A stretch of 64,000 nt of DNA from Terriglobales bacterium (GCA_035561515.1 DATMXP010000019.1:1-64000), one strand, 5' to 3'. Shown: positions 1,687-40,410, counted from the first letter of the stretch. Program-made: numbers and translations. The notes: generated from the letters alone by a model not told the origin.

Positions 1687-2545
1687 CTACGTGACTGCTG
1701 CCTCCAAAGCAGTGATTTTCGCCCGGAAATCGTTCAGCAATCCATCCTTCTCGTTGAAATAGGTCCGAGAAGTAAGCAAGTCGATGTCGTCTGCCCCAGC
1801 TTGGTCATTTGCATCAAGGCGTAGCATCTCCTCAATTAGGCTTTCCACTTCACGCCTTACCGGCTCCGAATGCCACTCGCGAATAGGTTCAAGTATTCTC
1901 TTCCGGCCATACCGAACTATGAACGCCTGCTCGCGAGGCGGTCTCGTCTTCATGTAGGTGACGAAACAGCACACACCGACTCTTGCGCATACATTTGCGA
2001 GGCGTCTCATTGTGCAGGCGAGCCGTGAAAATAGTTCCGTAAGTCCTGTGTGCCTAAACTCATGTGCGATAAGAAGTGACTCGTAGTTGTTTTCGTTCCT
2101 GAGTTCCTTCGCACTGCGGAGTACCGACGAAAGCTTGTCAAGTTTCAAACGTACATCCGGGACACCTACTCGCTCCCAGAAATGCTGAAGGGCTGCTGAA
2201 TCGACTTCGGCTCCAGTTCTTTGGGCCTGAGGCACTGCATTCTGTCGAAGAAACTTCGCAAGCCAAGTCGTCGAAACGTGATTCGTTCCTTTCAAGGCAG
2301 TGTGGCAGTTGTGCGTGACTCGTCGGGAAATCGCCATAGGGGACGAATACTAATAGTCGCGCTGTATGTACGATGGAGTAGTACAGACTTGTCGCCGCCC
2401 AGTTCAAGCGGGCAGGGCTAGCTTTTACACCCTCCAACGTGTCCGCTCCAGCGGCGTAGTCTAGGAGTGAAGACGCTAGTTCACAGAACGCTACGTAAAG
2501 CCGCTGTTCTGCTCGTGTTCTCCAGTGCGACTCTGGGGGGATCAT
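1687..2545 (-). pseudogene. Frameshifted gene of unknown function, third in the kinase-NTPase operon
   Basis: Reading starts at ATG 2545, overlapping the stop of the 1232-residue fusion, behind a strong GGAGGAAGG. The first frame gives a coherent helical segment with SLYYSIVHTARLLVF, HEPN-like in character. Somewhere between about 2270 and 2335 the coherent sequence moves to another frame (LIAHEFRHTGLTELF, then a charged C-terminus) and ends at 1687. The span is one base more than a multiple of three, so intact protein needs one base removed or a programmed shift. It may be a broken gene, a sequencing error in a homopolymer such as the CCCC near 2338, or real recoding. Confidence 0.5.
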
Positions 2546-5500
2546 CAATCCTTCCTCCTACGCGGCTCCGTGTTGTCTTCCGAGGAGCGGCTCCCCAACA
2601 ATTCAAAACAGCGTGTCTCGCAGGTTCCTCTTGTGAAGCGATCCATGTCATACGCTTTTGGTGATACGTACCACGCCGCGGCCACTCGTGCGACTCCGGC
2701 CAAAGCTCCAAAAGCGATAGAGTGCATTTTTGAGCCTGTAAGTCCAATCTCGATATTGGCACCACTGCCGAAGTACAGTTCGTTATAGACTTCCTCAGCC
2801 TTTCGAAGCGCACCCGGTAGATCATTGGTATCGACATCAATCAATGCCACGTTGGAATCGGCTGCACTAGCTGACAACTGAGCGGCGACTCGGGCGACTC
2901 GCCTGCGTATGGATGTCGGCGGAGGAGCAAAAATTCGTGCCGCGTCATAAGTTCGCGCGTCCAAAAGGTGCAACAAGCGATCATTCTTGGGTGATGCGGA
3001 TGCCATCAGCGCCCTCCAGCGCTCAGGCTCGGCCATCTCCTGATGAACTTCGGTAAGGTTATATGGAGCCTGCTCTCCCATGAAGACATCCCCCAAGCGG
3101 CTCAAAATGTCGTTATCTTGGGAATCGATTGAAATGCCCCGTCCCTCAAGATCTTCGTCGCGCGGGAAGTATTCTTCCGCAAGCGTATGCACCACAAGTA
3201 GTCGTCCAATCTGTCGAACACGGTCGCGGGCAGCTACGAACAGGAAGGGCTTGGAAAATCCCGAAGCGTCAAGAACCACTTCACCTGGGATATCGCTCAG
3301 CTCACGGCACAGGTCTTGATATGTGCCAACCCGTTTAGCGGGAATACGTAGTCGATTGACCTCATCGGCAATCTCACGCCCCTGATGGTCGTCGTATTGG
3401 ACAAGAATGAGACGTCGCGGACGAACAACACTTAACAATCGTTTTGCAGATTCTACGGTGCGATCCTCGAACCCCAGAGCAATGACTGCAGCTTCCACAT
3501 TACGATCAGCAAGTTGTTCTATATCAAGCGCTTCGGCATATAAACCCAGGGATGGATAAATGGGAGTACTTGTGCGCTCTGTACTAGATTCGGAAAACGT
3601 GAGTTGAACTGGTTTCGGCTGGGACGATTCTCCCGCATGTGGTTCGACTGAAGGCTGGCTATCGAGGTGCCGTGTTTGCACGTCTGCATCCTCCTGCCTT
3701 TCAGTATCTGCTGCGATGCTCTTGGATTCGCTCTCAACCAGAATGTCCTTTGCATCTGCGGGATTGGAAAGCCATTGCTTCAGATTCTCCCCTGACAATT
3801 CAAACCTGTCACGATCAGAAAGTCCCATGTAACTCGCCAGCCCAAGCATCTTTCGATATGACAGTTTGAACTGCAGAACTGGATCGTTGTCACGCGTCTT
3901 GGCCCGGGGCGCTCCCCCGTCGTAAACAAATACTCCGGCGTCTAGTAAATCGAGCAGCGTTGCGACGACGGAATCGAAATCTGGTCCTGCATCCACTCGT
4001 ACATAGAGTTTCGTGTATTGTCGAAGCCGACGCTTACCCGTGGTGCCGTTCTTGGCTGAGCGAGTCAGTAGTTCTCCTGAAGCTTGAGCAAAGGACAACG
4101 CCAAGCTTTTCTTATGCTGATCTCTCCGATTCAGAAAATGCATTAGGCTGGCAGAGTGCTCTAGAAAACAATCACATTGCTTTTCCGGCGATACCGTCGG
4201 TTCACTCGGATTGGCCCGCATCAAGATTTTCTCGTACAACTTGACTACATCGCCGAGGTCACCGACACAAACCGCTTGCAAGGCCCGCAAACCACGATAT
4301 ACGCGTTTTCGGGCAGGCGAAGATGCTGATGAGGTAGCAATCTCGTCGGCGATTTGCTCCAAACTGATATCTCCCAGCAACTCAACAGGCTCGCGACGAT
4401 ATAGTTCGTCTTGAAATTGTTTCCCGCGTCTGCGGAGGATTTCGGAAACAAATTCCATCTTTTCCTTTGTAGATCCCTCTTGCAACAACCGATATACCTC
4501 ATTGCCCAGGTCGAATTCATCAAAGTCGCGGTTTGGGTCCGCGGGCGCGGTGCCGCCAGGCGATAAAAGCATTCGCTGTAGCGCTTGGGCTTCCGTTGTA
4601 ATACGAAACGCGCACTTAGGATGCTGAAACAATAGCTTCGAAATCACCTCCCTGACCATGTCGTAGTGCAAGTACCTCGTGGAAACGTCATCAAGAAGAA
4701 AAAGCACATATTTCCCGGCGAAGACAGGTGCGGCGCCTTGGAGGATCATTGCTAAATGCCCAAATGCCTCAGCAGGAGCCATTTTCAACTTGCAGCCTGC
4801 TTCTCCTTCAGCGAGCTGAAACTGCAAGTCCGTCAAGAATTGCTCAAATGACCGTTCGCCGGTGTCGAAACTCGCGCCAGAGGAAATCTCAAGCGGCTTG
4901 AGTGAATCGCGAAGCAGGACATCAATCGAAGCAACCACAGCAGAGGAATCCATCGATCTTAAGTGGCGCAACACACGGATCGCATCCCGAATGTAAGCAA
5001 CGTAGAGCCGCTCGAACGGCAATGCAATACCCGTTTCATTGCCCTCTGGCCGACGGTAAGGATCAAGAAGTTTTTGACAAGACGCGTAAAGTCCTAAGAA
5101 TTGATCGCGGTCTAGCTGACTCGATATCGCGCCACCACGCTTTTGTGCTTCTGCCGCCCGTGCGTGAAAATGTAAGGCCCTCAGCAGCATGGTCTTTCCG
5201 CAGCCCCGCATTCCAGTGATTACTTGGGGTCCTCGCGCGCTAGTGCGGGTCAACCACTTGTCTTGAGGATCGAACCACAGCTCGGGCACATGCCACGATT
5301 CAAGCGCTTGAGCGTTATACGCATCACCAAAGCGGTGTAGTGAAAGTGGCTGACGCCAAGGTTCGTCGATAGAACTGAGAGCGCTGCGAAGCGCTGCAGA
5401 GGCATCATCAACCGTCATTACTCGTTGTGCCCCGGTTTCGGGCGCGAGATGTTCAGCCAGTCCCCTGAGCGTTCCTGCAATTCTGTAGTCGAGATCCGAG

Positions 5501-6243
5501 CTTCTACGATTCTGAACAGAAGTGGCGAGATGAGAGATGTGTCGAGCTATCTGGTGTTGATCTCCCAGAACGCGACCTCCGTGATCGCCACTTCGATCCG
5601 CATCTAGGACGGACCCCAGGTCGATAGCAACCGCCCGAACGCCGGGATCAATAACACCTGACCTGAAGCTCGTGGGCGGTACGCGCTGCACGATGATATT
5701 GCCGCCGTGAAGATCATTGTGAAAGCGCTCGCGATGGGCAAATAAGTGAAATATTTCGAACAGGTCGGCAGCGATCTGTGCTGCTGTTCGTGGGGTCAGC
5801 TGGTTTCGATCGGGGTCCGTGAGCACTTGCTCCAGAGTCGGCCCTGGAATGTTTTCTAAAACCGCGACAAAACATTCGATCGGCGAACTGCTGATTGTGA
5901 CAGTTGCCCTGAATTGATCCGTAATATTAGCGACAAAAGGAGTACCCTCCGCAATTTTGGCGTGTTCCTGGCATTCTTTTGACCAGTCTTTCTTGAAGTA
6001 CTCATAAATGGAAACGGGAACGATTTTCAACACGACTGTTCGCCCCAAAGACTCCTGTCGTGCTCGATAGACGGCGCTGTAGAAGCCACGTGAAATCGCT
6101 TCCTCAATAACGAAAGATGCCACGCGGCTAGGAGGCTGCTGCAAAGGGACCTCAAAAGCTCGCCCGCACGTTGCGCACTTCTCGCCAGGTTCTCTATTTG
6201 TAAAGTCGGAAGCAGGACACCAAAAACAACACAAGCTCGGCAA
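2545..6243 (-). CDS. Zinc-ribbon / protein kinase / STAND-like NTPase / CARF-like fusion protein
   Basis: A 1232-residue multidomain protein. A zinc ribbon (C6-x2-C9, C23-x2-C26) is followed by a Ser/Thr-type kinase: glycine-rich loop at 50-61, Lys73, catalytic loop FHNDLHGGNI with Asp177 and Asn182, and metal-binding Asp208 in AIDLG. A P-loop NTPase follows, with Walker A GMRGCGKT at 344-351 and Walker B VLFLLDDV at 513-520, then a long helical region typical of STAND signal-transduction ATPases. The C-terminal ~320 residues look Rossmann/CARF-like: VIALGFEDRTVESAK at about 920, DASGFSKPF at about 992 and GLTGSKMHSIAFGA at about 1168. The start is TTG at 6243, set by AGGAGG six bases upstream. 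It probably works with the upstream phosphorylase-like enzyme. Defence function is inferred; domain calls are by eye. Confidence 0.75.
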   Translation of the reverse strand: MPSLCCFWCPASDFTNREPGEKCATCGRAFEVPLQQPPSRVASFVIEEAISRGFYSAVYRARQESLGRTVVLKIVPVSIYEYFKKDWSKECQEHAKIAEGTPFVANITDQFRATVTISSSPIECFVAVLENIPGPTLEQVLTDPDRNQLTPRTAAQIAADLFEIFHLFAHRERFHNDLHGGNIIVQRVPPTSFRSGVIDPGVRAVAIDLGSVLDADRSGDHGGRVLGDQHQIARHISHLATSVQNRRSSDLDYRIAGTLRGLAEHLAPETGAQRVMTVDDASAALRSALSSIDEPWRQPLSLHRFGDAYNAQALESWHVPELWFDPQDKWLTRTSARGPQVITGMRGCGKTMLLRALHFHARAAEAQKRGGAISSQLDRDQFLGLYASCQKLLDPYRRPEGNETGIALPFERLYVAYIRDAIRVLRHLRSMDSSAVVASIDVLLRDSLKPLEISSGASFDTGERSFEQFLTDLQFQLAEGEAGCKLKMAPAEAFGHLAMILQGAAPVFAGKYVLFLLDDVSTRYLHYDMVREVISKLLFQHPKCAFRITTEAQALQRMLLSPGGTAPADPNRDFDEFDLGNEVYRLLQEGSTKEKMEFVSEILRRRGKQFQDELYRREPVELLGDISLEQIADEIATSSASSPARKRVYRGLRALQAVCVGDLGDVVKLYEKILMRANPSEPTVSPEKQCDCFLEHSASLMHFLNRRDQHKKSLALSFAQASGELLTRSAKNGTTGKRRLRQYTKLYVRVDAGPDFDSVVATLLDLLDAGVFVYDGGAPRAKTRDNDPVLQFKLSYRKMLGLASYMGLSDRDRFELSGENLKQWLSNPADAKDILVESESKSIAADTERQEDADVQTRHLDSQPSVEPHAGESSQPKPVQLTFSESSTERTSTPIYPSLGLYAEALDIEQLADRNVEAAVIALGFEDRTVESAKRLLSVVRPRRLILVQYDDHQGREIADEVNRLRIPAKRVGTYQDLCRELSDIPGEVVLDASGFSKPFLFVAARDRVRQIGRLLVVHTLAEEYFPRDEDLEGRGISIDSQDNDILSRLGDVFMGEQAPYNLTEVHQEMAEPERWRALMASASPKNDRLLHLLDARTYDAARIFAPPPTSIRRRVARVAAQLSASAADSNVALIDVDTNDLPGALRKAEEVYNELYFGSGANIEIGLTGSKMHSIAFGALAGVARVAAAWYVSPKAYDMDRFTRGTCETRCFELLGSRSSEDNTEPRRRKD

Positions 6244-6253
6244 AGAAGACCTC

Positions 6254-7441
6254 CTATTGGATCAGTTCTGTGCTGCGCCTTCTGATCGGTTCTTTCGAGT
6301 GGAAGAAGACGTTCCTTAGCTCGTCGGCGAGAGACCCAAGTGCTTCCGTTGCGCGAATCTCCGCGATTGCATCTCCCGCCCTCATCTTCTGGCCATAAGG
6401 AATGAGCAGCGTGATTCCACATGGATCTGAGAATGCTTCCTTCGTCGGTTGCCCGAGCTGTTGCCTCGATGACAGTATTCGCCTGATTGAATTGAGATCG
6501 ACGCCGACGAAACCGTCAGATTCTGCTCTGATCACAGCTCGCGGTTCCGAACCAAGTTGCAACAGTTTGCGCTGGAAATCCTCCCAGGAAGCCCCCTGCT
6601 GCTCCAGATGATTCTGAAATTTCGCGGCCAAAACTGCTGGCGGAGCCCCCAGTGGAGAATCAAGGCAAGACCGCGCCATCTGCCTGCAAAGCTCGGCATG
6701 GTGCTTCAGATCATCAGGAGCATTCCCGCTGAAGACGCTATTCAACGCGACAAGGGCTTCTCCACGCCCAATAAAACCCTGATACGGCATACTGCCATCA
6801 GTCAAGAACGCGGTCGCGCGAATTCCAAGTCGAGCAGCCACTCGTACAAACCGTCGTGCATTTTCACGTGCCTGCTCCCACCCGCCGAAATTCGTGAATG
6901 AGGCGACTCTGACGTCCAAACACACACGATTAACTCCGACTGCGATCTTTTTCGAGAGCAGGCTTGCTACGGCGAGGCTCGGCACGTCTTGAGCCCCGAC
7001 CTTTTGCCGGTATGAGAACAGCATGGCATCCAATGGGGCAAAACGCGCACCAGCCAAGAAATGCGCATAACCGCATTTATTCAGACAGCGGCGTACCTCC
7101 GTCGCGTTGAGACTTACTCTAAAGCCGGGAATGCAGGCCAAAACATCGACACCGCCCGCCGGTCTACCTGGCACCCCCAATTTGGGAACCATCGCACCGC
7201 CCGCAGCCAGTTCGAGCGGTGATAGCAGTGTCGATAAACTTGATGGGCCACCAGTCGATGGGACATCCGCAACAACTGCTTGCGGCGTGTGTTCCATTAC
7301 CTCGCCGTTTGTTCCAATACCATTTGCAAGATAAGCAATGTCCTCATCCGATACCGTGTCTGCCCTAAAACAAGAAATCAGCGCATCCATCGTCGTCGGG
7401 TTCGGGTTCTCAAGAAAGTCATCGATCAGTCGCTTGGTCAT
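6254..7441 (-). CDS. Thymidine/pyrimidine-nucleoside phosphorylase-like enzyme
   Basis: A 395-residue protein related to DeoA-type phosphorylases. It keeps the phosphate loop STGGPSSLSTLL, IPGFRVSL, a YRQK arginine matching the substrate Arg, ASLLSKKIAVG matching the Ser and Lys that hold the base, and a conserved GRGEALVAL. The Lys-His that precede STGG in classical enzymes are replaced (ADVPSTGG), so chemistry may differ. Typical enzymes split thymidine to thymine and deoxyribose-1-phosphate. It is the first gene of an operon, ten bases upstream of the kinase-NTPase fusion, which suggests a nucleotide-metabolism role inside a defence or signalling system rather than salvage. Confidence 0.7.
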   Translation of the reverse strand: MTKRLIDDFLENPNPTTMDALISCFRADTVSDEDIAYLANGIGTNGEVMEHTPQAVVADVPSTGGPSSLSTLLSPLELAAGGAMVPKLGVPGRPAGGVDVLACIPGFRVSLNATEVRRCLNKCGYAHFLAGARFAPLDAMLFSYRQKVGAQDVPSLAVASLLSKKIAVGVNRVCLDVRVASFTNFGGWEQARENARRFVRVAARLGIRATAFLTDGSMPYQGFIGRGEALVALNSVFSGNAPDDLKHHAELCRQMARSCLDSPLGAPPAVLAAKFQNHLEQQGASWEDFQRKLLQLGSEPRAVIRAESDGFVGVDLNSIRRILSSRQQLGQPTKEAFSDPCGITLLIPYGQKMRAGDAIAEIRATEALGSLADELRNVFFHSKEPIRRRSTELIQ

Positions 7442-7884: not shown

Positions 7885-9006
7885 GTGGGACAGCTACATC
7901 GCGGAAACTCAATAGGGACGATCTCACGACCGCGCAGTCGCACCGCGATAGATCTCTTCGCTGGCAGCGGTGGGCTGACCGAGGGGCTGAAGACGGCTGG
8001 CTTTACGGTTATCGCTGCTGTCGAGATTGATCCTCTTGCCGTAAAAACATATTCCAAGAACCATCCAGAAGTCGTTGTCTTCGAGACGGACATCCGCAAG
8101 CTAAAGTGCCGGACTATGATGCGGAAGGTTCGGAAGAAAAAAGGCGAGATCGATCTGTTAGCGGGATGCCCGCCGTGCCAGGGGTTCTCGACTCTGAAAA
8201 CGCTCAACGGCTCTGCTCAAGTTGAAGACAAGCGGAATGATCTCGTTTTTGAATACCTGCGCTTCGTGCGGGAGATCCGTCCCAAGGCCATTATGCTTGA
8301 AAATGTTCCGGGGCTTGCTTCCGACAAGCGCATGGAAAAGCTCAGTAAAGCCCTTGAGGAGCTTGGGTACGAGTGCCAATTCGAGGTCTTGGATGCTCAA
8401 GAATTTGGAGTTCCGCAGCGTCGTCGGCGATTGATCTTGGTTGGGAGCCTTTACGGTAAAGTGGGGTTCGGCAGGCGCACCATCAAACCCAAGACGGTCT
8501 GGCAGGCTCTGCGCGGGCTGAGTAGCAGAAAGCGAACGGACCCGTTACATGATGTCAGACCTTCAAAGCGATCAGATCGAATAACTGAGCTCATTGCGCT
8601 TATTCCGAAAAACGGGGGTAGTCGTTCCAGCCTTCCGAGACGCATGAAGTTGCGCTGTCATCGTCGGTCCACGGGATTTAAGGATGTTTACGGTCGAATG
8701 GCTTGGAAGAAGGTAGCCCCGACGATCACGACCGGTTGTGTGAATCCGTCAAAAGGTCGGTTTTTGCATCCTGTAGCTAATCGTGCGATCACGCTACGAG
8801 AGGCTGCGGTCCTTCAATCATTTCCCAGGAGCTACTTTTTCTCGCTTGAAAAAGGTAAGTTTGCAGTGGCTGCTCTCATCGGGAACGCACTTCCACCTGA
8901 GTTTATTCGCCGCCATGCAAGAAAAATTTACAGATTCTTAGAGAAGTCGGATGCCCAACATAGAAGAAGTCCTCGCGCAAAATCTCACGCGCCCAAATCA
9001 GTATGA
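7885..9006 (+). CDS. DNA (cytosine-5) methyltransferase
   Basis: A 373-residue enzyme with the C5-methyltransferase motifs in order: motif I IDLFAGSGGLTEG near 21 (SAM binding), catalytic GCPPCQGFS in the N-terminal third, the ENV motif MLENVPG, QRRRRLILVG (motif VIII) and a C-terminal GNALPPE (motif X). It would methylate cytosine C5 in a short recognition sequence. The start is GTG at 7885 with GAGGT just upstream. It overlaps the helicase gene by 56 bases and lies in one operon with vsr, so it probably modifies the site that Vsr and the helicase-nuclease act around. Confidence 0.93.
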   Translation: MGQLHRGNSIGTISRPRSRTAIDLFAGSGGLTEGLKTAGFTVIAAVEIDPLAVKTYSKNHPEVVVFETDIRKLKCRTMMRKVRKKKGEIDLLAGCPPCQGFSTLKTLNGSAQVEDKRNDLVFEYLRFVREIRPKAIMLENVPGLASDKRMEKLSKALEELGYECQFEVLDAQEFGVPQRRRRLILVGSLYGKVGFGRRTIKPKTVWQALRGLSSRKRTDPLHDVRPSKRSDRITELIALIPKNGGSRSSLPRRMKLRCHRRSTGFKDVYGRMAWKKVAPTITTGCVNPSKGRFLHPVANRAITLREAAVLQSFPRSYFFSLEKGKFAVAALIGNALPPEFIRRHARKIYRFLEKSDAQHRRSPRAKSHAPKSV

Positions 9007-11893
9007 CGCGGCACTGGACGACACCCCTGAAATATTGGCCCTAGCGTGTGCTGGCTCAGGCAAATCCCGGACTCTCGCCTATCGGATTGCAAGGCTAATC
9101 GCGCAGGGCATCGACCCAAAGGGGATCGTCGCATTTACGTTCACTGAAAAGGCTGCCGAGTCGATCAAGCTGCGAGTTGCGTCGGCATTAAAGGCCGTCG
9201 GCATTCCCGACACAATGCTCGGTGCGATGTATATCGGAACAATTCACAGTTACTGCCAGAATCTGCTTGGCGCAATGGACGCACGTTATCGTCAGTTCGA
9301 TGTACTGGACGAAAACCGGCTCAAACTCTACTTGATCTCACGTTATCCCCAGCTTGGGCTTCATCACTTGCGAAACCGCAATGGCCGGCAGGTCGGGTAT
9401 TTTGAGGTAATTCGGCAAGTCTCTGATGCTTGGAAGGTGCTGAACGATGAAATGCTTGATATTGCCAGTGTCGGTCAGCATGATGCTGCACTCGGAGACG
9501 TATTGCAATGTCTCCGTACACGTCTTAACCAAGATCAGTACATCGACTTTTCGATGATGATTCGCCTCGCAGTCGAGGCGCTACTGGCCGGAACCCCGCA
9601 AGCTAGACACGCGGTAGGAGAACTTCGGCATCTCATCGTCGATGAGTACCAGGATGTAAACCCTGCACAGGAAGTGCTGATATCCCAGTTGCATTCGCTT
9701 GGTGCGACGCTATTCGTTGTGGGAGACGATGACCAAGCCATCTATTCTTGGCGAGGTGCGGATGTTTCAAACATTCTCGATTTCCAACAGCGATTTCCGA
9801 ATGCCGCCCGCCACAATCTTCCAAAGAACTTCAGAAGCACACCCGCGATTGTCGGCGCAGCAGACGCGTTCATTGCAGCCGAGCTTGGCGCACGACGACT
9901 TACGAAGAATCCCCAAGCTGATGTACCTAACGGTCCCGAGGACTTCCGGAAGCTGTGGTTTCAGAGTCGGGCTGACGAAGCAAGTTGGGTCGCGGATCGA
10001 ATTTTGGCGTTACTGGGTACTCGGTACCAAGAGAAAGACGGCACCATCCGCGGCCTGACTCCAGCCGATTTCGCAATTCTGATGCGCTCGACGCGTCAAC
10101 CGGAGGGGGATGGCTCTCCCCGGCATCTCGCGTTTACGCAAGCACTTTCAGCGCGCAAGATTGACTACAGTCTCGAAGCTGGAGGCGGAATCTTCGACCG
10201 TCCCCAGGTCAGAGTTCTGCGGGATATCTTTGGACTGCTGCGCAACGACAATCCCGCGCGCGATATACTTCAGAACCTTTTTGAGTCTGCAATCGAGCCA
10301 GTCTATCCCGATGCAAATTTTTCGCGATTCGCGAATGTGATGGCAGACTGGGGCCGAAGAATTCATCCGCCAGCCGGTGTTCGGCAACGGCTCTTCCCTC
10401 AACAGCTCGTTCACGATCTTCTCGAAGCACTTGGAATTCAGAGCTCGAACTTCGATTCTGGCACGATGCAAGATCTTGGGGTTTTCAGCCGAATGCTTCA
10501 AGACGTCGAGACGGTATATCTCAGTATTGATTCTCCAAGGCGATTTGGAGAGATACTCAATTTTCTGGAGCATGTGGCAGAGACAGGTTACGACACATCA
10601 ACGCATGATGTGCTTCTGCGACCCGATGCCGTCACGGTTTCCACGGTTCATAAGGTAAAAGGACTCGAATTCCCTGTAGTTTTCGTCGTTGATGTGGAGT
10701 CCCAGCGTTTCCCGAAGAATCGCAGTGCATACGACGGCTGGTTACCCCAGGCTGTAATCGGTTCGTCGCTGAATCGTGGCGCATACCAATCGACACCACA
10801 AGAGGAAGCACGTCTTTTCTACACGGCAATCACGAGAGCGGAACGCTTCCTCTATGTAACGGGCAGCGCTAATCTGCCCGGCGCACGAAGGGTAAAGAGT
10901 CGATCATCGTACTTCCTGAGACTGGCTCACCAACAACTTTTGGAAATCCCGAACGGGTTACCGGCCGGACTGCAACCGCATGCGCAGCGCCGTCGAATTG
11001 ATGAAACGGTGATGCCGACCAGTTTTTCGGAGGCCCGCTATTTCTTGCGATGCCCGAAGGATTTTCAATTCAGAAAGAGCTTCGGTTTTAGCCCAGCAAT
11101 TAGTGAAATGTTCGGTTTTGGGAAGACGGTTCACACGGCCGTCGAAAAATTGCATGAGCTATTTCCCACAACCGTTCCTACAAGCGATCAAGCAGGCCAG
11201 ATTGCTGAGCAGACATTCCACCTTAAGCACGTCGCACCCAGTCAAGATCCGATAAACCGACCAGGCGGCTACGAGCGAGCCAAGGCCAAAGCCGTTTCAA
11301 TCCTGAGGGAATACACAAACCAATTTGCGGAAGACTTTATCCAGGAGAGAGCCGTAGAGGTGCGCTTCGAGATACCCCTGACACATGCGGTCTTAATGGG
11401 TGCTATCGATCTGCTCCTGAAAGTGGACGAAAACAATCAGATTCTGGACGCGACCGTCATCGACTTCAAAGCGATAGAAGGCGGACCTGATCCGACAAAC
11501 AACCCTGATCTTGACTGGACGATGTTGGCGCTACAAGTCCAGTTATATGCCCACGCCGCCCGCGAGGTGCTGACTCAGGCGGCGAGAACTGGATCAGTGC
11601 ACCTCTTGAAGGACAATCAGCGCCTCGAAGTCCCGATTACCGATCAGTCGATTGCGGCCGCGATTGCCAATGTTGAATGGGCGGTTGATCGGATACTCCT
11701 AGGTGAGTTTCCGATGCGACCTCATCCAGACAAATGCGCCACCTGTGACTTCAGGTCGCTTTGTCCCAAAACTCCGCAGAATTTCCAAACCGCAGCGCCA
11801 CCCGAGATTCACGTGCCCGGTGGCCTGAAATTTGCACCAGCCATTAGCGACTTTGTGGCAGCCGCAAACGCCGTGGGAGTACAGCAACCTTGA
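8951..11893 (+). CDS. UvrD/Rep-type DNA helicase with C-terminal RecB-like nuclease
   Basis: A 980-residue protein. Superfamily 1 helicase motifs: Walker A ACAGSGKSRTLAYRI near 28, AFTFTEKAA (Ia), VDEYQDVNPAQ (II), GDDDQAIYSWRGAD (III) and TVHKVKGLEFPVVFV (V). The C-terminal third carries a PD-(D/E)XK nuclease signature (GAIDLLLK ... ATVIDFKA) and a final CATCDFRSLC cysteine cluster, as in Cas4/AddB-type iron-sulfur nucleases. It would unwind and degrade DNA. Fusion with a nuclease and tight coupling to a C5 methyltransferase and Vsr suggest a restriction role; this is an inference. Confidence 0.9.
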   Translation: MPNIEEVLAQNLTRPNQYDAALDDTPEILALACAGSGKSRTLAYRIARLIAQGIDPKGIVAFTFTEKAAESIKLRVASALKAVGIPDTMLGAMYIGTIHSYCQNLLGAMDARYRQFDVLDENRLKLYLISRYPQLGLHHLRNRNGRQVGYFEVIRQVSDAWKVLNDEMLDIASVGQHDAALGDVLQCLRTRLNQDQYIDFSMMIRLAVEALLAGTPQARHAVGELRHLIVDEYQDVNPAQEVLISQLHSLGATLFVVGDDDQAIYSWRGADVSNILDFQQRFPNAARHNLPKNFRSTPAIVGAADAFIAAELGARRLTKNPQADVPNGPEDFRKLWFQSRADEASWVADRILALLGTRYQEKDGTIRGLTPADFAILMRSTRQPEGDGSPRHLAFTQALSARKIDYSLEAGGGIFDRPQVRVLRDIFGLLRNDNPARDILQNLFESAIEPVYPDANFSRFANVMADWGRRIHPPAGVRQRLFPQQLVHDLLEALGIQSSNFDSGTMQDLGVFSRMLQDVETVYLSIDSPRRFGEILNFLEHVAETGYDTSTHDVLLRPDAVTVSTVHKVKGLEFPVVFVVDVESQRFPKNRSAYDGWLPQAVIGSSLNRGAYQSTPQEEARLFYTAITRAERFLYVTGSANLPGARRVKSRSSYFLRLAHQQLLEIPNGLPAGLQPHAQRRRIDETVMPTSFSEARYFLRCPKDFQFRKSFGFSPAISEMFGFGKTVHTAVEKLHELFPTTVPTSDQAGQIAEQTFHLKHVAPSQDPINRPGGYERAKAKAVSILREYTNQFAEDFIQERAVEVRFEIPLTHAVLMGAIDLLLKVDENNQILDATVIDFKAIEGGPDPTNNPDLDWTMLALQVQLYAHAAREVLTQAARTGSVHLLKDNQRLEVPITDQSIAAAIANVEWAVDRILLGEFPMRPHPDKCATCDFRSLCPKTPQNFQTAAPPEIHVPGGLKFAPAISDFVAAANAVGVQQP

Positions 11894-12288
11894 CGGACAA
11901 TCTCACAATAGCGCAGCGCAGTTACTGCATGTCGCGAGTCCGGAACAAGCAGACCGGACTTGAGCGGCTCATTGAAAAGGTTTTACGGGACAAAGGGATC
12001 AAGTTTGACCGAAATCATCGAGAACTACCGGGCAGTCCGGATTTTGTTATTGCAAACTTGAAAACGGCTGTGTTTGTCGATGGTGATTTTTGGCATGGGT
12101 ACAGGTTTCCGTGCTGGGCGAATTCACTGTCGCCTTTTTGGAAAGAGAAAATTCAGAAAAATCGAACGAGAGATCGCCGGAGTCATGCGAGGCTGCGGCG
12201 AATGGGATGGCGCGTCGTGCGCCTCTGGCAACATCAAATCAAACACGATCTCGATCAGTGCGCCAAAAGAATTCTCAATGAGAAATGA
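11890..12288 (+). CDS. vsr: Very short patch repair endonuclease
   Basis: A 132-residue Vsr-family nuclease with SRVRNKQTGLERLIEK near 15, the catalytic core LPGSPDFVIANLKTAVFV, the GDFWHGYRFPCW zinc/active-site segment and KNRTRDRRSHARLRRMGW. Vsr nicks 5' of the T in T:G mismatches left by deamination of 5-methylcytosine and normally travels with a C5 methyltransferase, as here. The TTG start at 11890 overlaps the helicase stop by four bases (TTGA), so the genes are translationally coupled. Confidence 0.93.
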   Translation: MTDNLTIAQRSYCMSRVRNKQTGLERLIEKVLRDKGIKFDRNHRELPGSPDFVIANLKTAVFVDGDFWHGYRFPCWANSLSPFWKEKIQKNRTRDRRSHARLRRMGWRVVRLWQHQIKHDLDQCAKRILNEK

Positions 12289-12322: not shown

Positions 12323-15300
12323 TTAGATGATATCGGAAGCGTTGTCATTAAGAATTCGTGAAAAGAGCTGCTGCAAGTAGACTGCTCCGCCGTCCTCCAG
12401 AAACAACACATTTCGATCTTGCACATTTTGCTTTGTGACGCCACCGTTGATCCACGTGATCTGGTTGAAAGGGGTACGCGATAAGATGAAGGAATTCAAG
12501 ACGATTTTGGGATCGTTCAATGCCTTTTGCTTTTCCTTGATTAGCCGGTAGAGCTGCAATTTTGGGGAGTCTAGTCCGAACTCGTGAATAATCCCTTTGG
12601 GATCGACGAACGTGATGTACTGGTTTTCGTCGCTGAGTACCCAAACTATGAAATCAGGATAGAAATTGCCAGCCTCAAAAAAGCCGATTCCCCGGCCACG
12701 AGAACGGTTTCGGAGAAGATACAACTCCTTTCCCGCAAAAAGGCGGGCCTTTTCAGCCTGATAAAAATCGCGCAGTTCTTCTACGAATTGACGTTCGCCG
12801 TCGTTTAACGCTACCGGTGTCACTTCGACGCCATCTGCGTAGATCAGCGGATGGTAGAGGTGCTGGCGGACGAACAACGGCTTCAACTCTGGCCCGAACC
12901 CGGCTAACACCACACCGCTGAAGTCGCCGCTCTTAATTGCTTCTCTCAAACGAAAGATCGTTGCTCGCAAGTCTTCCAATTGGTGTTGCAGACCGACATC
13001 GCCCTCGTCTAAACGCACAACATATTGATCGGCCTCGATAAAGTTTTCATCTTCGGGCGTCAATTCCACGTATTTAAGATGCGGCGCCTCGGCGGCAGAC
13101 TTTTTGAGGTTGTAAAACCTCTCGCAGTACTTCTTGAGCAAGCCGACAGCGATCTGCTCCCAAATCCGAACTTGCCCGAAATCCCGAAATTGAAGAATCT
13201 CCGGGGGAATGAATAGCGTGTACCAAGTTTGATCGTTCAAAAGTTCCGCGATCTTCGGTTTCGGCAAGCTGAGATTATGCCAACCCTTATCGCTCTTGAA
13301 CTGCTGAAGTTCGAAATAAATCGAATCCAAATTTACGAAAGCCAGATGAGCCGAAGTCAATTTTCCTTCGCTCTTTGTTGCTTTGCGGTCATCTGCGCGA
13401 TCATCCGCAGCTCTCAGAGAAAAGACCCTCGGATACCAATCCAGCACAATTCGAGGAGCTTTGCCTCCTGGCCACCTATCCAGAGCCGGGTTTTCACCGT
13501 CTTTCTTAAAATCAAATCCAACTGATCGGAGTACACGCAAGCGCGAGGGCCAAGAATTCTTAACAATCGGTAACGATAGCTCAATTACCTCTGCTGGGAC
13601 GCCTTCGGCGTCGAGAAACTCTCGAAAACGATCCATGTAGTCGGCCTTCAGGCCGAAGACATACAGCTTCTCCAATTCCGGAAGGTGTGTTGGGTGTTTT
13701 CCGGGTAGCGTTTTGCTTCGCTTCAACGAAAAGTCCCGTCCCCACAGTCGGACACCACGACCAAACAATTGAATAATCTGTGAGCCTTCAGACTTTCCGA
13801 CGTTCATCAGACCAAGGGTCGTGACTCGAAAACTATTCCAGCCCTCACTGAACTTCTTGGCCCCAATCAAGAGATTAACTGAACTTTCCCGAGCATTGAT
13901 GGTTTCGAATAACGACGTCGATAATTCCTGTTCCGTCGCGTTTATGGATTTTTGCGCGCGAGACTGATCGAACAAGTTCTTCGAATCCCCAATGTTCACC
14001 ACACCGAAAGGGGCGTTCTCGCCGATTTGCAGAGCGAGTTCTCCGTCACTACGTTTTAGCCAATTGAGCCTTAGCGTGCCGGGGCTGTGCGTATTGAAAA
14101 CAGTGTGCAGGATGTCCTCGAAGACCTGTTCCGCGGACATTCCCAGCGTCGCAAGATAACCGAAGCTCCTGCGAAAGAGAGCTTTCTGCTCGCGATCTAC
14201 TATCGCAGCAGTTCCGCTGACGAGGGCCTCTAATCGTTGCAGCACTGCTGGGTGATCTTCTGCGCTTAAAAAGCGGCCTAGAAAAAGCAGAACGTCCATA
14301 ACATCGGAGACTTCCTTTGCCGACGGCATCGCCGCAACGCGTGCAGCAACGAACACCCACAGTGGTTTTTCTATGTTGTACGGCATCACTTCAGGGCCGA
14401 AGTCTTGGAAGATCCGAAGTTGCTGATAAAAAGCCAGGAGACACGCGGTTAGATATATCTCGCGGTTTTCTGATATCCAGTCGTTTAGGTTGAGGATTTG
14501 GTATTGCTTGCCGTATCCGTCGCGGTAGAAGTACTTGTAGGAATAGTCGAAAAGGATTGATTTCGCATATTGATCGGGAAGGTCGCGATTGTTTGTGGCC
14601 CGCATAGCCTGACCAAAGGTGGCGGAGTACTCAAACGAAAACCCTTGAGCACACAGCTTGGCGCGGTATTCCATCCACGCGCTCTCCTCTCCTGAGGACC
14701 CGCGGTGGCCTTCATCGACCAGTACCAAATTATTGCCTTCAAATGCTTCGACATCGACTGTTTTCTGCCTTGACTCTTCCCTGAGCTTGTAGATGTCGAT
14801 GATCTCTACACGATTCTCCTGAAAAAGCGTCGCGGCGTCCTTTTGGAAAATCTCACCGTGAAGGCCAGACTTCTCGAACTCGGTTTCGTGCTGTTCTGAA
14901 AGTCGTTCGTTCGGCGTCAGCAGAATGATTTTGTTTAGGTTGCGCTCTTGGCCATACTTTTTCGAATAATGCAGGTATTGTTTGACATTGACGTGCATCA
15001 GCAGCGTTTTGCCCGATCCAGTTGCAGACCACAGAGCGAGCTTTCGAAGCTCGTCAGTCTCATACGGGGAGAGTTGCTTCTTCAACCCGTTGTTGAAAGC
15101 TACCAGATGTTCGTTCAAATTCAGCCGCAGCGTTTCGATGTCATAAAAATAGCGATCAAGGTAGATCTCAGTAAATAACAAAGCCAAATACTGGAAGTAT
15201 TTTGGCAGCGGACGTTTGCCGTTTTCCTGCCGGCGAGCTGTGATCTCGTTCCAGTGCCTAACAATGTTGGCGTCATATTCTGTCACGAGCTCCCTTGTGA

Positions 15301-15535
15301 TTGACGGATGATTGCCCTTTCGGTTGCTGATCAGTGGGAGAAAAACTGTCTGACCTTCCTCCGTAAAGCCCTCGTACTCATCCCAGTGCCCATCGGCCGT
15401 CAAATCTCGCAGATCCTTTGCGCCGAAGAGTCCAAATAACCATCGGCACAATGCCAACCGCTGATCAAATCGGTCCTCATTACTATCGAGCTTGGAACTA
15501 CTCACACGTTTTGGTTTTCGCGCGGTGCTTTTCAA
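12323..15535 (-). CDS. Type III restriction enzyme, Res subunit
   Basis: A 1070-residue protein. SF2 helicase motifs: Walker A WSATGSGKTLLMHVNVKQYL near 168, ILLTPNERLSEQH and motif II LVDEGHRG (DEGH in place of DEAH), with later motifs including LFGRGVRLWGRD. The C-terminus has a PD-(D/E)XK nuclease, YPDFIVWVL ... FVDPKG. It translocates on DNA and cleaves when paired with the Mod subunit encoded just upstream. The start is TTG at 15535 with a GAGGG-type site. It lies 20 bases downstream of mod in the same operon. Its length is normal for the family. Confidence 0.92.
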   Translation of the reverse strand: MKSTARKPKRVSSSKLDSNEDRFDQRLALCRWLFGLFGAKDLRDLTADGHWDEYEGFTEEGQTVFLPLISNRKGNHPSITRELVTEYDANIVRHWNEITARRQENGKRPLPKYFQYLALLFTEIYLDRYFYDIETLRLNLNEHLVAFNNGLKKQLSPYETDELRKLALWSATGSGKTLLMHVNVKQYLHYSKKYGQERNLNKIILLTPNERLSEQHETEFEKSGLHGEIFQKDAATLFQENRVEIIDIYKLREESRQKTVDVEAFEGNNLVLVDEGHRGSSGEESAWMEYRAKLCAQGFSFEYSATFGQAMRATNNRDLPDQYAKSILFDYSYKYFYRDGYGKQYQILNLNDWISENREIYLTACLLAFYQQLRIFQDFGPEVMPYNIEKPLWVFVAARVAAMPSAKEVSDVMDVLLFLGRFLSAEDHPAVLQRLEALVSGTAAIVDREQKALFRRSFGYLATLGMSAEQVFEDILHTVFNTHSPGTLRLNWLKRSDGELALQIGENAPFGVVNIGDSKNLFDQSRAQKSINATEQELSTSLFETINARESSVNLLIGAKKFSEGWNSFRVTTLGLMNVGKSEGSQIIQLFGRGVRLWGRDFSLKRSKTLPGKHPTHLPELEKLYVFGLKADYMDRFREFLDAEGVPAEVIELSLPIVKNSWPSRLRVLRSVGFDFKKDGENPALDRWPGGKAPRIVLDWYPRVFSLRAADDRADDRKATKSEGKLTSAHLAFVNLDSIYFELQQFKSDKGWHNLSLPKPKIAELLNDQTWYTLFIPPEILQFRDFGQVRIWEQIAVGLLKKYCERFYNLKKSAAEAPHLKYVELTPEDENFIEADQYVVRLDEGDVGLQHQLEDLRATIFRLREAIKSGDFSGVVLAGFGPELKPLFVRQHLYHPLIYADGVEVTPVALNDGERQFVEELRDFYQAEKARLFAGKELYLLRNRSRGRGIGFFEAGNFYPDFIVWVLSDENQYITFVDPKGIIHEFGLDSPKLQLYRLIKEKQKALNDPKIVLNSFILSRTPFNQITWINGGVTKQNVQDRNVLFLEDGGAVYLQQLFSRILNDNASDII

Positions 15536-15555
15536 GAGCCGTCCCTCATCCCCTT

Positions 15556-18500
15556 CTAAACGTCTCTTCCGTCGAACATCCTCTCTTGGAATTCCTTCTC
15601 GATCAGCCTCACCTCCCAGCGGTCTTGAGCGCTGCGAAGGTTTTCCAAGTGGTTGTCACCATTTACATAGATGATGTCGATCTTGGCCTTTCTGGTGTTG
15701 TAGGACTCCAAGAAGAAAGCATCGAGGTCTGCGATTGACTTTTCTTTTGTATTCCGCCAAATGACTAGGGCGGCTTTTCTTTCCGAGGTGTGCCCCTCTA
15801 CGATTCTGAAGCCATTATGATGATCAACCCGAGTCACTCGCAAACCGATGAGATAGTTGAATGTCTCCACCAGATCAATGGTGACAGATCGTGTTTCTCC
15901 TACGGTGCCTGTTGCGATCTGCATTGAGCAATTGAATGGTTCTCCGAAGTGATCGACGCTTAATAGAGAGGCAGATGCTTCTGCCTCTACATTCAACATG
16001 TAGCGGAGCAGATAATCCTCGCGCATTGACTCATAGCTGTCGAGTAGGCTTTGCTGTGCGAACGTCCGCGGTCTAAGCCGAAGATTGTTAAGAGCATCTT
16101 CATAGGACTCCAGGCGTAGATATTTCACCATTGCGCTGCGTCCCTCTTTGTGATTCGGAATGCCATCGACCCATCTTTTTGAAAACATCAGTTTCTTCAA
16201 TCGCGGAAGCATGATGTCATCAAAGTGAGCTCCCATGTCACTTGCCACAAACCGCAATGGTTTACGCAGCTCTTCCGCCGCCTCCCATGTCGCCTGAAAC
16301 GTGGTGCCCGAACCGGCGAAAAAGTCCATTACGTAATCACCACCACTACAAGTCTGAAGGATGAATCTTTGGATCAGTGTGGAAGGCTTTGGATTGGGGA
16401 AGGCGTTTGCTCTTCCGAAGAGGTCAGCTACTTGTTTTTCGCCATCGGTGTAGTCGTGTATCACGGACTTCGCCACATTTGTTTCAACCTCGTGCAGAAA
16501 GCGTTTGTACCTCGGAACCTTGGTTTCGTCTTTCCCCCACACTATGCGATCTCGTTGCGCAAAGCGCTCAAAACTCTCGCGGCTTTCATCCGGCCATCGA
16601 TATGGCATGCGCCACCCCGTCTTTGGATGAGGACATGGCTGTCCGGTGATGGGGTGCGGTGGCTTGTAAAAGCGAAAGTTATCGTCGTTTGGATCTCTAG
16701 TCGTCGGAGATTGTTTTGCTGCTGGCATTGAAGCGTCGGACTCGGTCCAAATGACGAGAGTTGCGTTCTTTGCTTTTGCTTCCGATTCAGGTACGAGCCG
16801 CCCATCAGGATCTCGATATTCTGCGAAGCTGTAACTGTAGATTCCACGCCAAGGGTCCTGCTTCTTGGTTTCGGAGTTGTATTGCAGACCCATACTGGCG
16901 AGTTCTTGCTTGTATTCTTCCAGGTGCTGCATCATTACCTTTTGAATCTCTTCTTGGACTTTTTCAATTGATGGGTATTCAGGGTTGAGCCGCGTCACTA
17001 AGTCCTGCAATTCAACAAACCCGGGTTTCGGCTCACGATACATACTGGGTTCCTGCATAGTGGCTGGTTTGTTCTTAGCAAAAACCTCAACGTATTCGTG
17101 ATTTGTCGAGTATGTCGGCGATTGACTGTGAGTCGTGTTCTGCACCCAGATCAACTCTTCAACCCGATTATTGCCCCCGAATACCTCTGACAGAGCATGC
17201 TCCAAATTCGCGCGCTCGTTCTCATCAATGCTGGCAAATATGACTCCATTTTTCGCGAGGAGTGGATGGGACATCGCAAGCCGTTCACGGATCATCGTCA
17301 GCCAACTGGAGTGCTGGTAATTGTCTTTGTAATTGAAATCATCCCCTCCCCGGTTGTATGGCGGGTCGATATAGGTGCAGCGGATTCGGTCCTTGAACGC
17401 TTCTTGAATCAACCGCAGTGAATGGGCGTTATCGCCTTGGATTAGTAATCCGCTGATCGATTCATCGAAGTCCTGAACATTCGACAAAAGTGCATCGCGA
17501 AAGTTCTGATCGAAATGACAAGTATCGACTACTAGGCTCGGCAGCCTCTTCAAATCCTCAACGCGAATGTTTTGCGGATTAATCTCCACATCAAAAACAT
17601 CTTTCGGCAGGTTTCCAATTCTCAGCAATTCACCCCACTCCTGCACCTGAGCGTTATTCTCAACGATCGCGGGATAAAGCTCAGGTGCGATGCGATCCAC
17701 CGTGATGCAGTAATTGACCTCCGTTACGAACTTCTTCTTGAGCCAAAGCTTCTTCTGGAAATCTTCGAGCTGAGCTAGGAAATCAATGAGCTTGTGAGCA
17801 ATCCCGCGAATCGCCTTGACCTTCGCGAGATACTGGTTTGCCTGGGGTGCCGTTGCAGAGTCGAGATCGTCCAAATGAACGATCTCGTTCTTGACGAAGA
17901 AGTCGAGCTCTCTCCGCAGGAACCCGCCTAGATCCTTATGAATGAAATAGTCGAATTTATTTCGTGCAGTGAATTGACCAAGATGCCACTCGAGAATTGT
18001 CTTCTCAGGGTTTCGCGATGCAGTCGCTAATCCAGTAATCCAGGGCAGAGTCTCCGCATTGGACATAACGGCCTGAATTGTCTGTGCGTTTCGCTGCTCT
18101 GCCGTAACTCGTTTCTTTGATTTGTCCTCCACCTCCCGGTCTGAAGGTTCTGCTGACTCAGTGGCTTTGTTGTTCTCCGACTTGTACTCAAAGCGAATTA
18201 CAAGCTCTCCACCTACAACGATGATCGGATCGGATTCTGCCAAGACGAATCGCCGATCTTGAGTTTTGGAGGTCTGGTTGTTGCTCACGTCAATTTCAGC
18301 GGAGACAACCTTGAAGTGGACACGGCGACCGTCCGGAAGGCGAAAAGCGTAGTCCCGGAAGTACTGTGCACTTTTTATGTAGTACTGGTCCGCATTGGCC
18401 CAGTGCAGCTTGACCTCTTCCCCTTCGTAGGGAATCGCATACACACCCGGTTTGTAACGACGCTGTGATATGAAATCGCCGGCGTCGTAATAACGACGAA

Positions 18501-18852
18501 AGAAGTTGTAGAGGCTGGAGAAGATCTCCTCTTCACTAGCGGCTACGTCGTGGTCTTCCCGAAGATGTCGGCGAAGCTCCTGGACTCTGGGGATTGTGTC
18601 GGGAGAGACACCCAACTCCCCTGCCGCCTTCATAGCTTTGTCCAACTCGGTTTGGATCTCCGTTCGCCTCCCCTGATCCAACGTACCGAGCGCAAGTCTG
18701 ACTTGCGGAAGCAAGTCGTTGTCCAGGAATCGGCTGATCTCCTCCCGTTTGGCATTCATAATTCGATAAATGCCGAAATCGAGATCGGCTTGGTCGAACA
18801 TGAATAGTTCGCCTAAGAGCTTCTTGAATTTGTCGTAAGCCTGAGTGCTCAT
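15556..18852 (-). CDS. Type III DNA N6-adenine methyltransferase, Mod subunit
   Basis: About 1098 residues. Motif IV YIDPPYNRGGDDFNYKDNY and motif I DYVMDFFAGSGTTFQATWEA appear in the order typical of beta-class amino-methyltransferases. The long N-terminal and C-terminal parts fit target recognition and Res binding. It methylates adenine in an asymmetric site and is needed for both modification and cleavage. The frame is open to a GTG at 18870, but the ATG at 18852 (MSTQAYDKFKKLLGELF) begins the coherent sequence and is preferred. Neither start has a good ribosome binding site. Confidence 0.92.
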   Translation of the reverse strand: MSTQAYDKFKKLLGELFMFDQADLDFGIYRIMNAKREEISRFLDNDLLPQVRLALGTLDQGRRTEIQTELDKAMKAAGELGVSPDTIPRVQELRRHLREDHDVAASEEEIFSSLYNFFRRYYDAGDFISQRRYKPGVYAIPYEGEEVKLHWANADQYYIKSAQYFRDYAFRLPDGRRVHFKVVSAEIDVSNNQTSKTQDRRFVLAESDPIIVVGGELVIRFEYKSENNKATESAEPSDREVEDKSKKRVTAEQRNAQTIQAVMSNAETLPWITGLATASRNPEKTILEWHLGQFTARNKFDYFIHKDLGGFLRRELDFFVKNEIVHLDDLDSATAPQANQYLAKVKAIRGIAHKLIDFLAQLEDFQKKLWLKKKFVTEVNYCITVDRIAPELYPAIVENNAQVQEWGELLRIGNLPKDVFDVEINPQNIRVEDLKRLPSLVVDTCHFDQNFRDALLSNVQDFDESISGLLIQGDNAHSLRLIQEAFKDRIRCTYIDPPYNRGGDDFNYKDNYQHSSWLTMIRERLAMSHPLLAKNGVIFASIDENERANLEHALSEVFGGNNRVEELIWVQNTTHSQSPTYSTNHEYVEVFAKNKPATMQEPSMYREPKPGFVELQDLVTRLNPEYPSIEKVQEEIQKVMMQHLEEYKQELASMGLQYNSETKKQDPWRGIYSYSFAEYRDPDGRLVPESEAKAKNATLVIWTESDASMPAAKQSPTTRDPNDDNFRFYKPPHPITGQPCPHPKTGWRMPYRWPDESRESFERFAQRDRIVWGKDETKVPRYKRFLHEVETNVAKSVIHDYTDGEKQVADLFGRANAFPNPKPSTLIQRFILQTCSGGDYVMDFFAGSGTTFQATWEAAEELRKPLRFVASDMGAHFDDIMLPRLKKLMFSKRWVDGIPNHKEGRSAMVKYLRLESYEDALNNLRLRPRTFAQQSLLDSYESMREDYLLRYMLNVEAEASASLLSVDHFGEPFNCSMQIATGTVGETRSVTIDLVETFNYLIGLRVTRVDHHNGFRIVEGHTSERKAALVIWRNTKEKSIADLDAFFLESYNTRKAKIDIIYVNGDNHLENLRSAQDRWEVRLIEKEFQERMFDGRDV

Positions 18853-19123
18853 TGCTTGTTTTTGGCACACATATCCATTTTCGGGAAAATACCCCCGTTA
18901 CGGACGCGCGATCACAAAATGGTTAAACTTTCAGGAGTGTACAACACGGCTCAGAACCAACGGGCTGAAAGCGCGTCCGATTGAGGACTTCTGAACGTAG
19001 CACTTGTTAAGGGCACGTGCAATCGGGATGCCGACAAAGCGAATCCTCGGCGTCAAGGACGAAGAAGGCGACTGCGCATGCAGCCCAAACCGTATCGTCA
19101 CGATTTCTGAATCTGAAAGAACG

Positions 19124-28223: not shown

Positions 28224-28559
28224 GTGCCGCTCCGACTCAAACCCGTCGCGCGTTCGCTTTCAGTGCGAGCAGAGTTTTTCGGCTTGGAACTGGAGGACTG
28301 GGGTCTGGTGATCGCCTGGGCAATCCTCATGCGATTGATCGGAGACCACATTCACCGCGTGTTCCTCGGTTTCTTGCCGGTCTCAACAATCTTGGCCTAT
28401 GGCACATCCGCTGTCCTGGTTCTGCTGATCCGATGGGCGAAACACGGTAAACCGCGTGGCTACCTGGTCGATTGGCTTCAGCACCAATTTCGCCCGAATG
28501 CCCACAGCGCACGATCGAATGATTTGCAGTTGTCATATCTCATCGAGGATGAACAATGA
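28224..28559 (+). CDS. virB3: VirB3-like inner-membrane protein
   Basis: A 111-residue protein, GTG start at 28224. Two adjacent hydrophobic stretches, WGLVIAWAILMRLIG and ILAYGTSAVLVLLI, and a basic tail fit VirB3. It lies between the pilin and the VirB4 ATPase as in most virB operons, and its stop overlaps the virB4 ATG (ATGA). Called mainly by position, size and topology. Confidence 0.6.
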   Translation: MPLRLKPVARSLSVRAEFFGLELEDWGLVIAWAILMRLIGDHIHRVFLGFLPVSTILAYGTSAVLVLLIRWAKHGKPRGYLVDWLQHQFRPNAHSARSNDLQLSYLIEDEQ

Positions 28560-31312: not shown

Positions 31313-32060
31313 GAAATCACTCATTGGCCTGACGATTACGTCTGTTCTTCTTGTGCCACTTGCGGCTCACGCGTTCTTCGGAACTATGCCGGTGATCGAC
31401 TGGACTGCCGTCGCACGCATCGGCCAACAAATCGGACTTTCGCAGGAGACATTGAACACGCTTGGTCTCTACGTGCAGCAATATAACCGCATCAATGCGG
31501 GGGTCCAGGAAGGGGTCGCGCTTGTTCGCGGAAGACAGCTTCAGGGACTTCTGAATGAGGCTGTCGGGAGCCAATTCCCAGAATTTCAACAACTGCAGCG
31601 CGACTTTCGCAACGTCCTCGTTGACCCCGCCACGGTCCGCGGAGACCTCGAACTGACCTACGGGGTCATACCGTCTGCTGACTTCCCGTTGATTCGCAAA
31701 AGAAGAATTGATGCGACGGATGCCACGGCAACGCTCGGGCTATTCGATGCTTCGCGGATGGAACTCGTGTCAGTACAGGAAGAAACCGATGCTGATGATA
31801 TTGAGGCACGCGCGGCAAACGCGAGTCCAGGGGGTGCGGCCAAGTTAGCCGCCGCCGCGAATGGGGCCTTGCTGCGCTCGCAAGCCTACGACCATCGCCT
31901 ATTGGCTCGGCTGATGAGATTGCAAGCCCTCTCGATCGCCCGCGACAACTCACAGGAAAAAGAACTCGAACAAGTTCGTCAAGCACAACTGACCACAGTC
32001 TCGACCATGGTCGGCAGTATGCAACTGTCGTATGGCATTGGAGATAGGGTGGGACACTAA
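31296..32060 (+). CDS. VirB5/TrbJ-like periplasmic protein
   Basis: A 254-residue protein from ATG 31296, behind AAAGGAG; it overlaps the end of virB4 by 17 bases. Signal peptide RKSLIGLTITSVLLVPLAAHA. The mature protein is largely helical (IGLSQETLNTLGLYVQQYN, coiled segments near the end with QEKELEQVRQAQL), as in the VirB5/TrbJ minor pilus proteins. The gene order virB4-virB5-virB6 supports this. Confidence 0.6.
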   Translation: MRLLRRKSLIGLTITSVLLVPLAAHAFFGTMPVIDWTAVARIGQQIGLSQETLNTLGLYVQQYNRINAGVQEGVALVRGRQLQGLLNEAVGSQFPEFQQLQRDFRNVLVDPATVRGDLELTYGVIPSADFPLIRKRRIDATDATATLGLFDASRMELVSVQEETDADDIEARAANASPGGAAKLAAAANGALLRSQAYDHRLLARLMRLQALSIARDNSQEKELEQVRQAQLTTVSTMVGSMQLSYGIGDRVGH

Positions 32061-33019: not shown

Positions 33020-33033
33020 ACGTGGAGAACTGT

Positions 33034-34634: not shown

Positions 34635-34650
34635 CCTCGGAGCAACTGAT

Positions 34651-36928: not shown

Positions 36929-36972
36929 TTCAACACGATCATCCACAATCGGCACCGCATCGCCCATCCACA

Positions 36973-39191: not shown

Positions 39192-39251
39192 CCGGGAGGA
39201 ATCCACGAAGTCGTCTAACACAATTTGATCGCGATTGAAGGTTCACATCAC

Positions 39252-40381: not shown

Positions 40382-40410
40382 GTGGTTACCGGAGCCGTAG
40401 CCTGAACCCG

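Follow-up and report, generated by a model that had tools for sequence, protein, structure and literature searches.

The 64,000-nucleotide stretch of Terriglobales bacterium DNA analysed here (GCA_035561515.1 DATMXP010000019.1:1-64000; hereafter the window) encodes a thymidine/pyrimidine-nucleoside-phosphorylase-like protein and, directly downstream, a CARF6-type fusion of zinc ribbon, protein kinase, AAA+ ATPase and CARF domains. Our best explanation, held at about even confidence, is that the two genes work together as a module for signalling and effector action and are attached to a C5-cytosine restriction-modification locus. Rather than being a stand-alone new system, the fusion probably provides the signalling for a restriction-type antiphage system, and its genomic context makes a role in defence likely. 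Both open reading frames (ORFs) are intact and separated by 10 bp. A C5 methyltransferase gene diverges from the phosphorylase-like gene and is followed by genes for a UvrD/PD-(D/E)XK protein and then Vsr, which are the candidate restriction partners. These methyltransferase and Vsr partners (7885-12288) lie just outside the span of 1687-7441 treated by the initial annotation and were missed there. The features are:

7885..9006, plus strand: C5-cytosine DNA methyltransferase (PF00145, 1e-61)
8951..11893, plus strand: UvrD-type helicase with PD-(D/E)XK nuclease domain, probable restriction component (PF00580/PF12705)
11890..12288, plus strand: Vsr-type endonuclease (PF03852, 1.3e-22)
6254..7441, minus strand: thymidine/pyrimidine-nucleoside-phosphorylase-like protein, 395 aa (NF004490, 3.4e-30)
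2545..6243, minus strand: CARF6-type fusion, zinc ribbon - kinase - ORC/Cdc6-like AAA+ - tandem CARF, 1232 aa (PDLC01925 and PF24389)
6145..6243, minus strand: zinc ribbon of the fusion, residues 1-33 (C6, C9, C23 and C26 conserved in the alignment)
5554..6114, minus strand: protein kinase domain of the fusion, residues ~44-230 (PF00069, 9.8e-5; K73, D177, N182, D208)
3754..5325, minus strand: ORC/Cdc6-like AAA+ region of the fusion, residues ~307-830 (PF24389, 2.6e-21; P-loop 344-351, Walker B 513-519)
2599..3501, minus strand: predicted tandem CARF domain of the fusion, residues ~915-1215 (AlphaFold2 model and fold matches)

Conservation of this gene set was examined by scanning GTDB genome contigs, which yielded 64 loci. 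A fusion scoring above 400 bits was present in 50 of them (a few truncated at contig ends; two duplicating phylum genomes G360 and G307). These 50 loci span Acidobacteriota, Thermodesulfobacteriota, Planctomycetota, Pseudomonadota, Actinomycetota, Bacteroidota, Nitrospinota, Bacillota and Zixiibacteriota, together with one divergent archaeal member, a full-length fusion without phosphorylase in a metagenome-assembled genome of Candidatus Methanoplasma (L079). The phosphorylase-like gene adjoins the fusion in 34/50 loci, mostly overlapping or abutting the fusion start, and the pairing proposed by the initial annotation is thus conserved across many phyla. A homologous C5 DNA methyltransferase lies within 5 kb of the fusion in 38/50 loci and Vsr is found in 22/50; in about a dozen loci the methyltransferase stands directly upstream of the phosphorylase, giving the order methyltransferase-phosphorylase-fusion. 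After removal of two near-duplicates and of loci with short flanks, the phosphorylase, the methyltransferase or both were present in 42 of 46 loci, and fusions without the phosphorylase usually retain the methyltransferase. Near more distant ORC-type relatives, neither phosphorylase, C5 methyltransferase nor Vsr was found (0/11). As a control we took the 57 SWI2/SNF2 (PF18766) matches of the 48 host genomes; by their coordinates, none had a C5 methyltransferase within 5 kb (Fisher p ~1e-18 against the fusion loci). Pairwise identities correlated with those of the fusion for both the phosphorylase (Spearman 0.55) and the methyltransferase (0.62), values reached by 0 of 2000 permutations, while two domains of the fusion itself correlated at 0.78. 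By sequence comparison, the phosphorylase and fusion are a co-inherited module. Strong matches to the phosphorylase subfamily (above 240 bits) occurred in 4 of 396 genomes of the window's phylum, exactly the four with the fusion, and a bit-score gap from 249 to 104 separates them from housekeeping thymidine phosphorylases. Among 296 genomes around a Bacteroidota carrier, that carrier gave the sole strong match.

The restriction genes accompanying the module differ between loci. One locus (L075) holds the same five-gene set as the window, including the UvrD/PD-(D/E)XK and Vsr genes, in another arrangement. On a Loktanella plasmid (L100, NZ_CP072995.1, 6983-13354) the fusion lies near a C5 methyltransferase with a NaeI-family endonuclease beside it, and at L070 a NaeI restriction endonuclease likewise adjoins the methyltransferase. 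Among the other neighbour families, Vsr and HATPase_c_3 occur most often, and type II restriction endonuclease and MzaB models recur. The C5 methyltransferase is the constant partner, and the restriction enzyme varies. The placement of the system in a defence setting is borne out by these neighbours, namely C5 methyltransferase, Vsr and the type II restriction endonuclease models around the loci. That Loktanella plasmid was the one plasmid with the fusion, no plasmid match to the phosphorylase was obtained at E <= 1e-25, and a search of phages and viral contigs returned neither protein.

The upstream protein belongs to the thymidine/pyrimidine-nucleoside phosphorylase family, as the initial annotation had supposed. 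Its residues were compared with Bacillus stearothermophilus pyrimidine nucleoside phosphorylase in a 38-member alignment, with roles as assigned in published phosphorylase structures, namely base binding for Arg168, Ser183 and Lys187 and phosphate binding for Lys81, Ser110 and Thr120 (B. stearothermophilus numbering). All three base-binding residues (R145, S160 and K164 in the window) are kept in 38/38 members. In contrast, the phosphate-site residues are lost in 38/38, with K81 replaced by I/V/L (F once), S110 by G/A and T120 by G/A/V. Position H82 has become A/P, and an invariant GRPA within VPGRPAGG replaces the glycine loop. Because the phosphate-binding residues are lost while the base pocket is kept, ordinary phosphate-dependent cleavage appears unlikely, and a pyrimidine-binding function with another co-substrate seems more likely. 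When aligned with TrpD of the same genome, the phosphate loop shares D-x-x-[S/G]-T-G-G and K-x-G/A, and this resemblance to anthranilate phosphoribosyltransferase may be called suggestive only. This likeness was set aside, as the whole protein scores far higher as a thymidine phosphorylase.

The fusion itself is not undescribed, contrary to the initial annotation. Residues 1-1215 of 1232 match the PADLOC model PDLC01925 ("CARF6--CARF_STK_AAA"; 1143 bits, E=0), and Makarova et al. 2014 described a small family combining zinc ribbon, kinase, AAA+ with an arginine in the P-loop, CARF and winged helix-turn-helix (wHTH), for which kinase-mediated signalling was suggested (PMC4012209). The architecture is therefore catalogued and known. 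The words "phosphorylase" and "methyltransferase" are absent from the main text of that paper, and our literature search found no paper linking the fusion with a phosphorylase, an earlier mention of the neighbours being possible as the 2020 CARF classification paper fell outside the search. The kinase residues K73, D177, N182 and D208 did not vary among the 49 full-length homologues aligned (49/49), so that the intact kinase read by the initial annotation holds, as does its zinc ribbon, an N-terminal CxxC...CxxC with C6, C9, C23 and C26. The P-loop at 344-351 (GMRGCGKT) also stands, with invariant core residues and Arg346 inside it in 49/49. The second P-loop claimed at 513-520 does not, as YVLFLLDD is a Walker B strand (FLLDD). 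Membership of the methylation-associated defence system (MADS) was ruled out, the mad6 match being weak and confined to the kinase domain.

AlphaFold2 models were used for the remaining parts of the fusion. The AAA+ region was modelled with a predicted local distance difference test (pLDDT) score of 84 and matched an archaeal ATPase (2qen, Z 13.0), archaeal Cdc6/Orc1 (2qby_B, Z 12.6) and eukaryotic Cdc6/ORC. For the C-terminus, residues 895-1220 were modelled from 47 homologues (pLDDT 94). VIA-align placed Can1 first (6sce_A, Z 14.0 over 244 residues), a chain that holds two CARF domains, followed by Csm6 (11.8), the SAVED domains of Cap5, a viral SAVED protein and Cap4 (~10) and Cam1 (9.9), with unrelated rows at 7 to 8; Foldseek likewise ranked Can1 top (3.5e-6). 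Since the Can1, Csm6 and SAVED matches exceed the unrelated rows, the C-terminus is a predicted tandem CARF pair, which agrees with the Rossmann/CARF-like domain of the initial annotation. No sequence-level match to any solved CARF structure was found, and likeness of fold does not identify the ligand bound.

A third gene had been counted as part of the system. Positions 1687-2337 and 2138-2548 are overlapping ORFs in different frames that form one broken gene. An intact 340-aa relative in a genome contig without the fusion (G389:C95) covers both parts in one frame, and the window copy at 1687-2548 is therefore frameshifted, being either a pseudogene or a sequencing error. It has no Pfam family, and no relative lay beside any fusion homologue in the fetched fusion loci. 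Frameshifted and absent from those loci, it was ruled out as a component and is a bystander.

The source of any signal for the CARF pair was sought among known synthases. A clear Cas10 was present in 3 of 48 carrier genomes, and the window's own genome gave no Cas10 match over the cut-off. CD-NTase (SMODS) was found in 9/48 carriers, the match in the window's own genome lying on another contig and not in the fusion operon. These counts rule out an obligate Cas10 or CD-NTase partner. As most carriers lack both families, which were those searched, the tandem CARF probably answers in most carriers to something besides a dedicated cyclic-nucleotide synthase.

Other proteins occupy the position of the phosphorylase in some loci. 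In two Pedobacter loci (L054, 6728-7984; L055, 8745-9992) putAbiC takes this position and overlaps the fusion start; in Rhizobium (L046) a TIR-domain protein (8705-9724) lies just upstream of the fusion and the phosphorylase is missing; and in Rhodoglobus (L060) a histidine phosphatase occupies that position or one immediately upstream of the fusion. A thymidylate-kinase set stands upstream, beside the fusion or the methyltransferase, in Novosphingobium and Loktanella. Presence or absence of the phosphorylase requires 7 changes on the fusion tree, as estimated by a quick method on long branches. These changes and alternative occupants favour an effector or substrate-handling slot controlled by the fusion. 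Separately, two alphaproteobacterial loci (L045, 6082-8705; L058, 5617-8266) lack the phosphorylase and share a conserved group of upstream genes that includes those for a thymidylate-kinase-like protein and an AAA_28 protein.

The analysis establishes a conserved gene set, the folds, intact kinase and ATPase motifs, and a base pocket kept beside an altered phosphate pocket. For the two-gene module we infer the ligand, the direction of signalling, the substrate and the antiphage outcome as follows. The methyltransferase would mark host DNA, and the fusion would act as sensor, its ORC/Cdc6-like AAA+ region and zinc ribbon engaging DNA or a DNA-processing intermediate. The tandem CARF may bind a small nucleotide that arises while foreign or host DNA is cut or degraded. 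Binding would activate the kinase, which would then phosphorylate a partner, most likely the upstream phosphorylase-like enzyme. This enzyme would in turn convert a pyrimidine nucleoside or nucleotide, though not through ordinary phosphorolysis, and would block phage growth where restriction needs a back-up. Several observations weigh against this reading. The phosphorylase is missing from 16/50 loci (a few of them owing to a contig end), so the enzyme is not obligatory; the alternative occupants of its slot are seen in few loci only; and shared islands could partly account for the nearby methyltransferase and restriction genes.

Alternatively, the phosphorylase-like protein could belong to the signalling side, as synthase or eraser of the nucleotide read by the CARF pair, with the kinase or the linked restriction enzymes as effectors. 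We consider this unlikely, if still worth serious attention. It would suit the low Cas10 and CD-NTase counts, which leave no obligate signal synthase, as well as the kept pyrimidine pocket beside an altered phosphate pocket, the co-inheritance of enzyme and fusion, and the methyltransferase that usually persists where the enzyme is missing. However, effector-type proteins (putAbiC, TIR) fill the same slot in some loci, and CARF-bearing fusions persist in the loci without the enzyme. A restriction-modification regulator, controlling the timing of methyltransferase or endonuclease expression or restriction relief without direct attack on phage, is decidedly less probable. Adjacent C5 methyltransferase, Vsr and restriction endonuclease genes and an AAA+ of ORC/Cdc6 type are consistent with it, but it would leave unexplained why a nucleotide-metabolism enzyme is conserved and why abortive-infection proteins take its place.

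The fold matches to cyclic-oligoadenylate receptors (Can1, Csm6, Cam1) and SAVED domains could point instead to an accessory protein that answers to cyclic oligonucleotides supplied in trans, either by type III clustered regularly interspaced short palindromic repeats (CRISPR) systems or by cyclic-oligonucleotide-based antiphage signalling systems (CBASS), with the methyltransferase hitch-hiking in the same islands. We regard this as improbable, as Cas10 and CD-NTase are missing from most carriers, Cas10 also from the window's genome at the cut-off used, and the methyltransferase association far exceeds that of the defence-locus control. A more speculative idea, which we consider a long shot, is synthase-free, methylation-linked immune signalling, in which the CARF would read a pyrimidine nucleotide made or consumed by the enzyme, for example from degraded host DNA marked with 5-methylcytosine, and the kinase and ORC-like ATPase would trigger an abortive response.

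Knowledge of CARF sensors is most advanced for CRISPR and CBASS-type systems, in which the signal synthase is known. The widespread CARF-kinase family described here instead has conserved partners of another sort, an altered pyrimidine phosphorylase and a C5 methyltransferase. It offers a concrete cassette of two or three genes in which to seek a CARF ligand outside CRISPR, as well as a nucleotide effector that a kinase controls and that is linked to restriction-modification.

Elsewhere in the window, a Type III-like restriction (ResIII) and methyltransferase (N6_N4_Mtase) pair adjoins the C5 methyltransferase and Vsr genes (12323-18870). Conjugation and Type IV secretion genes occupy 28556-41623 and 50832-52130 (VirB4/TraG, VirB8, TrbI, coupling protein, a TraI_2 relaxase-type protein and a tyrosine integrase), and these conjugation, relaxase-type and integrase genes give the defence island the appearance of cargo carried by an integrative conjugative element. 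A homologue of the DNA polymerase III beta sliding clamp (43023-44144) lies beside the conjugation genes. At 227-1586, a SocA/Panacea-domain protein (903-1586) and then a 223-aa ORF without identification may be a toxin-antitoxin pair, and a KaiC-like double ATPase is encoded at 61283-62764.

Compared with known systems, the window fusion shares with the CARF6/Makarova 2014 family its full-length match, zinc ribbon, kinase, AAA+ with P-loop arginine and CARF; that description ends in CARF and wHTH, whereas our model places a second CARF half up to ~1220 and winged-helix-like elements before the CARF. Like Can1 (6SCE) and the SAVED receptors (Cap4, Cap5, CalpL), the fusion has two CARF-type halves per chain, but it carries a kinase and ORC-like ATPase in place of a fused nuclease or protease and has no linked Cas10 or CD-NTase gene. 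The enzyme is of the same family as pyrimidine-nucleoside and thymidine phosphorylases (1BRW, 1AZY) over most of its length, with the base-binding Arg/Ser/Lys in common, and differs from them in lacking Lys81, Ser110, Thr120 and His82 and in its new VPGRPAGG loop. As in Type II C5 restriction-modification loci with Vsr (NaeI, Mza-type genes), C5 methyltransferase, Vsr and restriction genes are habitual neighbours here, and unlike plain loci of that kind, those of the window type carry an extra kinase/CARF/phosphorylase arm.

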